Below, piece after piece: positions 29,557 to 36,404 of a DNA stretch of 37,030 nt. Made by a program: the position numbers and the translations under genes. The stretch comes from an uncultured Fidelibacterota bacterium (GTDB lineage: Bacteria > Fidelibacterota > Marinisomatia > Marinisomatales > TCS55). The stretch covers positions 1-37,030 of the forward strand of contig CAJXWT010000013.1 of the NCBI GenBank assembly GCA_913062595.1, in the 5' to 3' direction. A model generated the notes under the pieces. That model saw only the letters and a list, made by a program, of their open reading frames with translations, searched no databases and was not told the DNA's origin. Positions within the stretch are counted from its first letter, which is position 1, and every line of letters starts with the position of its first letter.

Positions 29557-29970
29557 GTGCGACATCGAAAAAAAGGTAAGAAACTGGGCGTGAATCCAAG
29601 CCATCGACGCGCTTTGTTAGCTAACTTGGCTGAGAATTTAATAATTCATAAACGCATTAAAACAACGGATGCGAGAGCCAAAGAGCTGCGCCGTTATATT
29701 GAACCTCTCGTAACCAAAGCAAAAAAGGGTGATCTGAACTCGATTCGCATGATCACAAAGAAAATACGTCATAAGGATGTCCTAAATATATTATTAAATA
29801 ACATTGCTCCATTATATGATGATAGAAATGGTGGGTACACGCGCATAATAAAACTTGGTTTTAGAGATAATGATCGCGCATCTATATCACTAATTGAATT
29901 TGTAGATATGGAAGGTACCAAAAAGATTGAAGGAACACCCGTCTCAAAAGAAATACAAGAGACAGAGTGA
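29557..29970 (+). CDS. rplQ: 50S ribosomal protein L17
   Basis: L17 is near the tunnel exit. GTG at 29557 gives RHRKKGKKLGVNPSHRRALLANLAENLI, followed by RIKTTDARAKELRRYIEPLV and GGYTRIIKLGFRDNDRASISLIEFV, the standard sequence. At 137 residues it has an acidic C-terminal tail beyond the common core (about 120). It is the last gene of the alpha cluster, with an intrinsic terminator 47 bases later. Confidence 0.96.
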   Translation: MRHRKKGKKLGVNPSHRRALLANLAENLIIHKRIKTTDARAKELRRYIEPLVTKAKKGDLNSIRMITKKIRHKDVLNILLNNIAPLYDDRNGGYTRIIKLGFRDNDRASISLIEFVDMEGTKKIEGTPVSKEIQETE

Positions 29971-29998: not shown

Positions 29999-31186
29999 TT
30001 GAATCGTGTCTTATTGAGGGCAATCATTTTGATTGCCCTTCTTTTTATTTCAATATCACACCACAATCTTATAGCTGGTGAAGGCGATGTAGTACCACCA
30101 TTAGATCATAGATGTATATGGGTTACCCGTGATGTTTTGAAGTCAAAAAGGACCATAGATGAAATGGTCAATTTTGCGATTGAAAAAAACATTAATCACC
30201 TATTTGTACAGATAAGAGGTCGAGGAGATTCTTTTTATGAATCCGAATTAATTCCTCGAAGTCAAATACTGAGTGAAGGTGAGTTTGATCCACTGGCATA
30301 TTTACTGGATACAGCGAAGGGTAAAGGAATTAAAATTCACGCCTGGGTAAACGTCTATGTTTTATGGTCAAGTAAATCATTACCTAACCATGAGCGACAT
30401 ATTTTACATATGCGGCAGGAATGGTTGGATACTACACAAGAATGGCCAGTGGATGTTGAAAAACAATTGAACATGGTAACAGTTAATAATAATGGTAGCG
30501 AGGGATTATTTCTTTCCCCAAACCACCCAGATGTGAATGGATACTTAATTAAAGTATTTCGAGAATTAATTACCAATTATGATATCGATGGCTTGCATCT
30601 GGATTATATCCGCTATCAGGACGCAGAGTATGGTAGGAATCCGTATGCAATTGCCCGATTTAAAAACGAATCAGGAAATGATCCTGGTCCGTGGTTTCTA
30701 GAGATGGAACGCAGTACAATTGCTAGTCCTAGATTAATAGGCAATATGAAACGGTGGAATAATTTCAAACGCAAAGCAGTCACTTCTTTGGTCAAGGATA
30801 CACGAACATTGGTTAATGAAGTACGACCAGATTGCATAATATCTGCTGCAGTGAAACCTAATCTATATGTTGCCAGAGAGCGGTATTTTCAGGAATGGAA
30901 TGTCTGGCTTGCAGCGGGTTATATGGATTGGATAGTTCCGATGAATTATTCACCCAAGATGCGTGAATTTGCAAGAAATATTGATGTTATAAATGATAAT
31001 TTGCCAAAAAAATACCGTGATAAAATAATTATGGGAATTGCGCTCTATAACCAGGAACCAAGTGAAGCGGCTGAGAAAATAAAATTTTCACGTTTAAGAC
31101 AATTTCCCGGTATATCTGTATTTTCATACAATTTAATGATCAAAGATCCTCGCTATTCTTCAGCACTTGATCAAGAAAACTATTAA
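29999..31186 (+). CDS. Exported glycosidase-like protein (GHL10/DUF187 family)
   Basis: From RCIWVTRDVLKSK the sequence follows the (beta/alpha)-barrel of GHL10 proteins: HLFVQIRGRGDSFYESELIP, KGIKIHAWVNVYVLW, DIDGLHLDYIRYQD with its acidic pair, and MDWIVPMNYSP. The family includes putative polysaccharide or peptidoglycan hydrolases; the substrate here is unknown. No ATG fits: the first in-frame one (30164) would cut off the first strand. TTG 29999 gives MNRVLLR plus AIILIALLFISIS, a good signal peptide, hence exported. TTG 30014 or 29927 (overlapping rplQ) are alternatives. Start choice is the main doubt. The terminator at 30017 falls inside the signal-peptide codons, which is odd. Confidence 0.8.
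   Translation: MNRVLLRAIILIALLFISISHHNLIAGEGDVVPPLDHRCIWVTRDVLKSKRTIDEMVNFAIEKNINHLFVQIRGRGDSFYESELIPRSQILSEGEFDPLAYLLDTAKGKGIKIHAWVNVYVLWSSKSLPNHERHILHMRQEWLDTTQEWPVDVEKQLNMVTVNNNGSEGLFLSPNHPDVNGYLIKVFRELITNYDIDGLHLDYIRYQDAEYGRNPYAIARFKNESGNDPGPWFLEMERSTIASPRLIGNMKRWNNFKRKAVTSLVKDTRTLVNEVRPDCIISAAVKPNLYVARERYFQEWNVWLAAGYMDWIVPMNYSPKMREFARNIDVINDNLPKKYRDKIIMGIALYNQEPSEAAEKIKFSRLRQFPGISVFSYNLMIKDPRYSSALDQENY
30017..30050 (+). terminator. Intrinsic terminator of the S10-spc-alpha cluster
   Basis: The arms AGGGCAATCA (30017-30026) and TGATTGCCCT (30030-30039) match perfectly over 10 bp around the 3-base loop TTT, and are followed by TCTTTTTATTT. This is a textbook Rho-independent terminator on the + strand, 47 bases after the rplQ stop. 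It also lies within the open frame of the next gene, where it encodes the hydrophobic core of the signal peptide. Confidence 0.9.
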
Positions 31187-34169: not shown

Positions 34170-34625
34170 GTGAGAACCATAAATAAGCTACTTTTAGTCC
34201 TTTTTATTGCCATAACTGGCTCTGAAGTATTATTTGCAAATTATGCATTTTACCGACGGGTGACTTCTACATGTAAATCCTATCATGTTGAAGTTTCCTC
34301 AGGTGAAATGTCACTTTCAGCTGACAACAAAAACTTTGCAATAAATCTTATAAGTAGACGAAATAATTTTGAAATGATAATGCTTGTGGGATTTGCTGCA
34401 GCCGGTAAAGCAATAATTCATCAAAAACATTTGCAAGGAACAATAAGTAATTATAATCCTGTTATCCCGGGTCAAGTACATGTAGTTGTTACTGTACCTA
34501 TGGGTCGGGATAAAACTATATTTTCTGCAGAAGCAAATGCTTTGTTGGTTCAGGAATTAGCAGATGGATCGCTTGATTCAGCTGATTTTATGAGAAAAAT
34601 AAAAGATTCAATTCAAACACTATAA
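34170..34625 (+). CDS. Unrecognised exported protein, 151 residues
   Basis: I do not recognise this protein. The GTG start gives INKLLLVLFIAITGSEVLFA, a likely signal peptide cut near residue 24, so the mature about 127 residues should be outside the cytoplasm. The mature part has alternating strand-like and polar stretches: AFYRRVTSTCKSYHVEV, a segment with FEMIMLVGFAAAGKAII, then PGQVHVVVTVPMGRDKTIF and a charged helix-like end (DFMRKIKDSIQTL). There is one Cys in the mature region. AAGGA lies only 2 bases before the GTG, a poor spacing, so the exact start is unsure. It precedes a small DUF350-like gene by 9 bases and may be its partner. Confidence 0.7.
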   Translation: MRTINKLLLVLFIAITGSEVLFANYAFYRRVTSTCKSYHVEVSSGEMSLSADNKNFAINLISRRNNFEMIMLVGFAAAGKAIIHQKHLQGTISNYNPVIPGQVHVVVTVPMGRDKTIFSAEANALLVQELADGSLDSADFMRKIKDSIQTL

Positions 34626-34893: not shown

Positions 34894-34919
34894 AAAGGGG
34901 CTCATAATGAGCCCTTTTT
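34894..34919 (+). terminator. Intrinsic terminator between convergent genes
   Basis: GGGCTCA (34898-34904) and TGAGCCC (34908-34914) form a 7-bp stem around TAA, extended by three A/T or G/T pairs, and followed by TTTTTG. It ends transcription after the DUF350-like gene. On the other strand the hairpin is followed by TTTAACCG, a weaker T-tract, so it may also act for the convergent gene that ends at 34923. Confidence 0.85.
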
Positions 34920-34922
34920 GTT

Positions 34923-36404
34923 TTATACTAAAATAAGTACGATAATAATTCCTGATATAGTATTCAGAAAATTTACCATATCATTATCCACTAGGTACAG
35001 ACCAGATACGTGCATAGATGGTAGATTACAATGTTTTCTATTTTCAGTGATATTTTTGCATTTTGTACATTGGAAAGTTGCTTGAATTGAACCTCCTAGT
35101 AATGAATCAACCAGACCGCCAGCAGTACCTGTAAAAATTATAATACCTAGAAGTGATGCTGGTAAACCTAATTGCACACCTGTGATACCAATTACTGATG
35201 CACCTAAAACTGATCCTAATATTCCCAGTAATGATATGCCCCCAGACGTACCCTTTATTACTGATTTTAATTTGGTAATATGAATTGGATCCCAGGGGCT
35301 TAATAATCCTATTTCGCTTGCCCATGTATCAGCTGTGGCGGCAGCAATTGCTGCCAGATATAGGATAAATAGTTGGTCATTCGGAGAGTAAAAGTTTATT
35401 ACGGATATAATAGTAGCAGCGCCACCATTTGCTAAAACCTGGATGATATCTCGCTGTGAACCCTTTTGTAAAGTATTTTCTGTTTTTGGGAGTTTTGAAA
35501 GTGCAGATGATAGAATGAAAAATGTAAGGATCGGTACAATCCACATAAAACCACCGGCACCAAAAATAATATTTCCCATTACATAAGCAGAAAGGACTCC
35601 ACTTTTGCTAAGCGATTTGAATTTGTAGGCACCATAGAATACAATTGCCGATGCAAAGGCCCAAATCAGTAGATGGTTAAGTGTACCATGGGTATAATTG
35701 ATCAAAAATAAATCATAGCTTAAGGCGGTCATTATGGGCACAGAAAAGTTGTCAGATCCGCGACTACTGCCAGCCTCTGACAAGGTCGCTATCATTGCTA
35801 CGAAGCCACTTGTACCAATCAAAATAGGCAGAGGAATAAAAAAAGCTGCGCCAAATAACCAAGCAAATAAGTCTGTTCCAATGTATATAATCATGAAACT
35901 GGACAGGAACATACCCAGGCATCCTTCAATTGATTTGATATCATCCCAGATCCGGAAGTTCCTTGGCTGTGGTTTGCGTTCACCAATAACCGCAGCGATT
36001 GTATCGGAAAAAGTCATGATTAACATAGATAGAATTAAGGTGATGGGTTTTTCCCACCAAAATAGCGCTAAAATAAGAAATGCAATGGGGAAATACACCG
36101 TCCCATAGCTGGCTCTATCTGTTGAATGCATCCCCTTGAACTTCTCCGTCTTCAGTGCAAGAGCATTAACAAAAATAAAGACGCCCGCCAAAAAGACTGG
36201 TGGTATATTTGATTTGAATATAAATGGACAAGCTGATACTAGTGTACCCACGATTAGATGGACCAGTTTCCGGCTCGATTCCGGACTCCATTTCAGCATT
36301 GATCGCGCAACCTCACTGATTCCTATTAAAATAAAAATGAATATGAAGAAAAGAACAAAAGTGTACCATTCATTAATAAAAGGCTGCCATATAGGTAGTT
36401 GCAT
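34923..36404 (-). CDS. Fusion of a phytol-kinase-like (VTE5/dolichol-kinase) domain with a DUF92 (VTE6-like) domain
   Basis: A 493-residue membrane protein of two parts. Residues 1-230 resemble CTP-dependent lipid kinases: RKLVHLIVG (45-53), FSDTIAAVIGERK (132-144), KSIEGCLG (157-164) and EAGSSRGSDNFSVP (210-223). Residues 240-493 match DUF92/TMEM19: ATADTWASEIG (356-366), KGTSGGISLLG (384-394) and the Cys pair and HC in FQCTKCKNITENRKHC (445-459). In plants VTE5 makes phytyl phosphate and VTE6 (DUF92) adds the second phosphate. The fusion therefore suggests one protein that turns a prenyl alcohol into the diphosphate. The alcohol used is not known. It is the only minus-strand gene and faces away from ppk2. 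Confidence 0.85.
   Translation of the reverse strand: MQLPIWQPFINEWYTFVLFFIFIFILIGISEVARSMLKWSPESSRKLVHLIVGTLVSACPFIFKSNIPPVFLAGVFIFVNALALKTEKFKGMHSTDRASYGTVYFPIAFLILALFWWEKPITLILSMLIMTFSDTIAAVIGERKPQPRNFRIWDDIKSIEGCLGMFLSSFMIIYIGTDLFAWLFGAAFFIPLPILIGTSGFVAMIATLSEAGSSRGSDNFSVPIMTALSYDLFLINYTHGTLNHLLIWAFASAIVFYGAYKFKSLSKSGVLSAYVMGNIIFGAGGFMWIVPILTFFILSSALSKLPKTENTLQKGSQRDIIQVLANGGAATIISVINFYSPNDQLFILYLAAIAAATADTWASEIGLLSPWDPIHITKLKSVIKGTSGGISLLGILGSVLGASVIGITGVQLGLPASLLGIIIFTGTAGGLVDSLLGGSIQATFQCTKCKNITENRKHCNLPSMHVSGLYLVDNDMVNFLNTISGIIIVLILV

Follow-up and report, generated by a model that had tools for sequence, protein, structure and literature searches.

The rplQ-GHL10 junction in the window

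The window, which is the whole stretch of 37,030 nucleotides that was analyzed, carries an alpha ribosomal operon with the gene order rpsM-rpsK-rpsD-rpoA-rplQ. The rplQ stop codon occupies positions 29968 to 29970, and the next ORF encodes a protein that we assigned to the GHL10 family (Table 1). This assignment is based on matches to PF02638 (E = 2.5e-34; 119.3 bits, with a curated cutoff of 27.9) and PF13200 (E = 4.8e-7) and on a profile match to Cwp19 (5oq2; E = 4e-23); a search of NCBIfam returned no match. In tblastn searches, rplQ was found immediately 5' of GHL10 in relatives with 52 to 99% identity.

The two genes are joined by a perfect 10-bp hairpin (positions 30017 to 30039; AGGGCAATCA-TTT-TGATTGCCCT) that is followed by the T-tract CTTTTTATTT. 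If the outer G-T pair is counted, the stem comprises 11 pairs with a loop of 3 nucleotides (arms GAGGGCAATCA-TTT-TGATTGCCCTT), and hairpin and T-tract together cover positions 30016 to 30050. The element thus has the form of an intrinsic terminator, namely, a stable GC-containing hairpin with a T-tract directly 3' of it. RNA folding of the hairpin gave -16.1 kcal/mol (z = -5.8 with respect to dinucleotide shuffles), and none of 200 shuffles folded equally well. To obtain a genome background for the hairpin score, both strands of 1.57 Mb of the same genome were scanned. Only 28 sites scored as high as the junction hairpin or higher: 25 were intergenic or partly in an ORF, 1 was opposite an ORF, and 2 were early in a same-strand ORF, namely, the rplQ-GHL10 junction and recX. 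An Rfam search at the junction revealed no known family and only two subthreshold chance matches. An outer imperfect repeat (30006 to 30017 and 30050 to 30061) resembles an outer stem but is changed in the relative L031 and was treated as chance. Elsewhere in the window, a strong conventional hairpin with a T-rich tail (AAAGGGGCTCATAATGAGCCCTTTT TGTTTT; 34894 to 34918) lies between the ORF at 34170 to 34625 and the convergent ORF at 34923 to 36404, and it is plausibly the shared terminator of both.

TABLE 1 Features of the rplQ-GHL10 junction (positions in the window)
Feature	Position	Strand	Basis
rplQ (ribosomal protein L17), last gene of the alpha operon	29557..29970	+	ORF list; tblastn
TTG, one of two starts named by the sequence-only reading; unlikely	29999..30001	+	TCG in L031, CCG in L034
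TTG, likeliest GHL10 start, adjoins 5' base of stem	30014..30016	+	Kept in L031 and L034
Putative terminator hairpin, reads R-A-I-I-L-I-A-L	30016..30040	+	Fold; synonymous null; covariation
T-tract CTTTTTATTT, reads L-F-I of the hydrophobic core	30041..30050	+	T-rich in relatives too
Predicted signal peptide MRAIILIALLFISISHHNLIA, cleavage before GEGD	30014..30076	+	Sequence, hydropathy; cleavage site inferred by eye
Predicted exported glycosyl hydrolase-like protein of the GHL10 family	30014..31186	+	PF02638, PF13200, Cwp19 5oq2

An earlier sequence-only reading of this DNA had placed the hairpin and T-tract inside the GHL10 frame, where they would encode the hydrophobic core of a signal peptide, and had noted that no ATG, GTG, or TTG between the hairpin and the domain could serve as an alternative start without loss of the first strand. 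All three statements were confirmed: the frame is open across the element, hairpin and T-tract read RAIILIALLFISIS, and none of these codons occurs in that interval of the window. The same reading left the start codon between TTG 29999 and TTG 30014, and the window offers only TTG starts upstream of the domain. In the two nearest relatives, L031 and L034, the first of these codons is replaced by TCG and CCG, respectively, which makes it an unlikely start, whereas the second is kept in both; the position equivalent to TTG 30014 is TTG in L025, L027, and L028 and ATG in L059. Since only TTG 30014 is conserved, it is the more likely start, and the likely precursor is MRAIILIALLFISISHHNLIA-GEGD, beginning at the codon that adjoins the stem. 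A parallel for a TTG start is found in the same genome, where a lipoprotein gene 3' of a glutaredoxin gene has TTG at the position at which four congeners have ATG. L031 (JACAFS010000078.1) is titled as a Thaumarchaeota MAG; it carries a bacterial rplQ-GHL10 junction with a GHL10 protein 83% identical to that of the window, and the contig is evidently mis-binned or mislabeled Neomarinimicrobiota.

Conservation and translation of the hairpin in Neomarinimicrobiota

Relatives with assigned names put the genome of the window, a MAG, in Candidatus Neomarinimicrobiota (SAR406), a marine phylum. The order rplQ-GHL10 is kept throughout the sampled members, and we compiled 144 distinct junctions from this phylum; the loci are related, and the counts given below are not independent. 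For each locus, 400 synonymous recodings with the same residues were generated, and the best hairpin-plus-T in the interval was compared. An in-frame hairpin with a T-tract was present in 132 of the 144 junctions, in each case above the synonymous null at p ≤ 0.05 and often above all recodings, with a mean score of 38.6 versus 24.5 in the null. This test is conservative because the protein was held fixed although the protein itself tracked the hairpin. The T count was 7 or 8 in 127 junctions, and the 12 junctions that lacked a significant hairpin by score comprise some real losses as well as some hairpins that the scan did not detect owing to long loops or mismatches. The putative overlap of terminator and signal peptide is not limited to the genome of the window.

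Covariation was analyzed in a set of 98 distinct hairpins with a common register. In this set, 92.4% of the cells were paired, compared to 77% when shuffled and 35 to 62% when slid. Two-sided changes were observed at 10 of the 11 stem pairs and amounted to 209 cells (65 in shuffles); compensatory change in the stem, the test of a selected structure, was thus found. On a tree of RplQ and the GHL10 domain, independent arm changes summed over five pairs went in the same direction approximately 13 times and in opposite directions approximately 0.1 times, with no single pair reaching 0.05. The same signal is visible in the residues facing each other across the arms, which were RA..AL (48), KA..AF (32), KT..VF (4), RA..AF (3), RV..TL (2), and KV..TF (2), with no instance of KA..AL. 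Arginine in the 5' arm pairs with leucine in the 3' arm, lysine pairs with phenylalanine, and the change from alanine to valine goes with that from alanine to threonine; in genus g34, one stem pair occurs as GC, GU, and AU (L140 to L143). The amino acids of the predicted signal peptide covary as base-pair partners. As to hydrophobicity, the 15 residues counted from the hairpin have a mean hydropathy of +1.9 (132 loci), with R or K preceding the core.

Several features indicate how this region is read. (i) The GHL10 frame is open across each of the 132 hairpins, and at least 124 of these share a single codon register. (ii) The distance from the hairpin to the first tryptophan of the domain falls into ten length classes, from 53 to 86 nt, all of which are 2 mod 3. 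(iii) An in-frame start upstream of the hairpin exists at 130 of the 132 loci, with ATG among the candidates at 60; L193 and L200, which have the hairpin, contain no ATG, GTG, or TTG in frame near the junction. (iv) In the clade L070 to L084, an ATG approximately 17 to 20 nt 5' of the stem yields MILRYLKAGIIPAFF... as the N-terminus. (v) In one family, the same type of hairpin is read in another frame (K-G-S-L-K-R-L-P-F) at L068, L069, L199, and L200; the hairpin therefore outlasted a change of reading register.

These data bear on the alternative that the protein starts 3' of the hairpin, the terminator being ordinary noncoding DNA that happens to be open. Such an arrangement holds in outgroup phyla (L087, L102, and L266 to L268), and at Shigella flexneri gluQ-rs, one of the two AUG codons that might start the gene lies within the terminator, the other being 27 nt downstream (PMC3542578). 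In Neomarinimicrobiota, however, the interval between hairpin and domain is devoid of any ATG, GTG, or TTG at 66 of the 132 loci, and only 22 have a start there that leaves at least 15 residues. Both the codon register and the 3n spacing are conserved, and the clades with an upstream ATG (L070 to L084, L029, L043, and L049) require that ATG for the signal peptide. A start after the hairpin is already refuted for most clades, and we regard it as very improbable as a general explanation.

Separation of the two functions

Each function is also found alone. Searches of two genomes of family f13 (L382 and L383) did not reveal GHL10; in both, a very similar hairpin-T of the type GGGCAAC..GTTGCCC TTTTT stands in noncoding DNA after rplQ, and the element is therefore considered the operon's own terminator. 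In genus g23, five loci (L155, L157, L159, L160, and L164) have lost the hairpin and kept the hydrophobic N-terminus. Other phyla commonly have the terminator between rplQ and the ATG of GHL10 (L087, L102, L266 to L268, and L277). According to the sequence-only reading, relatives that lack the hairpin or have it outside the open frame would speak against the overlap. Such relatives do occur. They are confined to one derived genus, to genomes that lack GHL10, and to other phyla, and they therefore indicate that the functions are separable and not that the overlap is accidental. By these comparisons, the region is shown to be coding, the hairpin to be under selection at the RNA or DNA level, and the two constraints to be separable.

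The possibility that the hairpin is a by-product of conserved signal-peptide codons can be assessed on the same grounds. T-rich codons and R-A..A-L repeats favor pairing, and the hairpins of the null, given their mean score, are not negligible. Nevertheless, the synonymous null was beaten at 132 of the 144 loci, the residues of both arms change together, the hairpin also occurs in a different register, genus g23 has the signal peptide without the hairpin, and the hairpin is kept where GHL10 was not found. A signal peptide that alone forces the hairpin is ruled out by the synonymous null and genus g23, and the by-product reading is, in our judgment, the least probable of all those considered here.

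Covariation, codon register, the ATG-start relatives, and the controls that retain only one function strongly support the central claim of the sequence-only reading, namely, that a single stretch of DNA would act as terminator and also encode the signal peptide. Terminator-shaped DNA and export signal appear to have been conserved together while the sequence changed, as if one piece had been selected twice. The simplest history would be that an ancestral intergenic terminator was absorbed into coding sequence. Two further groups were noted. In the Gemmatimonadota-type loci L090, L243, and L274, a post-rplQ terminator lies in frame near the GHL10 domain, with a GTGA stop/start overlap; this overlap possibly had an independent origin or is older than the phylum. 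In the small genomes of family f15 (L384 to L390; 0.8 to 1.0 Mb), GHL10 was not detected, rplQ is not directly followed by a hairpin-T, and the frames 3' of rplQ look like an opposing gene.

Probable readthrough and other putative embedded terminators

The junctions carry a conserved putative terminator on the same strand between the rplQ stop codon and the GHL10 domain, which is the arrangement of a readthrough-dosed gene. We consider it probable that the alpha-operon terminator was absorbed into the GHL10 coding sequence, is translated as a signal peptide, and allows GHL10 to be made by limited readthrough. The individual steps would be as follows. (i) Hairpin and T-tract act as the intrinsic terminator of the alpha ribosomal operon, a role suggested by their form, covariation, and position. 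(ii) GHL10 of Neomarinimicrobiota would start at or just 5' of the hairpin, so that the terminator is translated. (iii) The translated terminator would provide the signal peptide with its charged residue and hydrophobic core; since a T-tract reads Phe or Leu in any frame, a terminator is a ready-made signal-peptide core. (iv) The majority of the alpha-operon transcripts would stop at the hairpin, and the readthrough minority would carry GHL10, so that the envelope hydrolase would be held at a small, constant proportion of ribosomal-operon transcription. (v) Readthrough may be increased by a ribosome that initiates at the codon next to the stem. A GHL10 promoter inside rplQ is possible; the hairpin would still be in the path, but the tie to ribosomal-operon output would be weaker.

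Upstream mRNA can be stabilized by stem-loops, and a GC stem would sit in the early coding region of GHL10. The stem-loop might thus serve mainly in the processing or 3'-end protection of rplQ mRNA, or regulate GHL10 translation, rather than terminate transcription. We find this improbable: nearly all loci have a T-tract 3' of the stem, which is required for termination and not for stability.

The overlap itself might also be regulatory. In such a translation-coupled switch, ribosomes starting beside the hairpin would block its folding, and GHL10 would be transcribed only if promptly translated. At most loci, the start codon lies 0 to 35 nt 5' of the stem, close enough for an initiating ribosome to reach it. 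In Streptococcus gallolyticus pil1, readthrough increases when the terminator is translated (PMC3894217), and translation controls termination within the Bacillus subtilis bmrB leader ORF (PMC4191407). However, the spacing between start and stem varies, many of the starts are weak TTG or GTG codons, and RNA polymerase would reach the T-tract only tens of nucleotides past the exposed start, leaving little time for initiation. A switch of this kind is conceivable, and we hold it to be rather unlikely.

Probable dosing by readthrough at the rplQ-GHL10 junction has precedents. Escherichia coli recX is expressed past the recA terminator with approximately 10% readthrough, and S. flexneri gluQ-rs has no separate promoter and is expressed through readthrough of the dksA terminator (PMC3542578). 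As may be the case for GHL10, the downstream gene is reached by readthrough of an upstream intrinsic terminator, but the recX and gluQ-rs terminators were described as preceding the gene or lying at its extreme 5' end, whereas the GHL10 element would consist of translated, functional codons across a phylum. The bmrB leader likewise has an intrinsic terminator inside a translated frame; it is short and regulatory, contains an antiterminator, and senses antibiotics, whereas here the frame is that of the exported enzyme itself. In the pil1 leader, mutation showed that translation into and through the terminator hairpin prevents termination (PMC3894217). The GHL10 frame also runs through a hairpin, with a corresponding effect only a possibility; pil1, in contrast, involves a separate leader peptide with phase-variable repeats, and its terminator encodes no signal peptide. 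A literature search, limited to open-access articles and hence weak evidence, retrieved no paper in which a terminator also serves as a signal peptide. The rplQ-GHL10 junction would represent a form of the readthrough-dosed gene in which the terminator is translated as a signal peptide and kept phylum-wide.

E. coli DigH, which belongs to the GHL10 family, is an envelope glycosyl hydrolase. It is a peptidoglycan hydrolase that acts at cell separation (PMC12288456), and low, growth-linked expression would make sense for such an enzyme.

Other genes of the same genome have similar elements. Directly after recA, recX contains a strong terminator-like element (AGCGTCTTCGG-tattt-CCGAAGACGTT TTTTTTTCT; L249:14625-14651, G000:C4:14625-14651) within the codons of SVFGISEDVFF, a conserved stretch near the N-terminus. 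Of 30 order-level relatives, 27 have a hairpin at almost the same site that exceeds the synonymous null (p ≤ 0.05), and the predicted architecture of recA-recX is the same as that of rplQ-GHL10. A weaker third case is the hairpin AAAAGTCCC..GGGACTTTT GTTTTTT after the glutaredoxin gene (L288:8330-8354, minus strand, G000:C2), which encodes a lipoprotein signal peptide (KKSLLLGLLFFHISC) and is kept in four congeners, all with an ATG start. A further hairpin, AGGACCAATA-ctgt-TATTGGTCCT (L256:11355-11378), lies in the signal peptide of another ORF (RGPILLLVLLLSVSLSA) and has a poor T-tract. Since the recX and glutaredoxin-lipoprotein cases join rplQ-GHL10, this lineage may habitually place terminators inside the coding sequence of the following gene. 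A tentative extension is that first-codon terminators are a recurring gene-dosing device of Neomarinimicrobiota at these three junctions, in which translation would feed back on readthrough and terminators would seed signal peptides.

A number of implications would follow. (i) The junction would be a deeply conserved case of a short DNA selected at once as transcription terminator and as protein, with residues that covary since their codons pair. (ii) It would provide a route from a noncoding element to a functional targeting peptide, by way of the Phe and Leu that a T-tract gives in every frame. (iii) Exported proteins of this kind will be misannotated wherever a gene caller steers clear of terminators or shortens the start. 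(iv) The junctions constitute a natural, phylum-wide series in which the effect of translation on terminator readthrough becomes testable.
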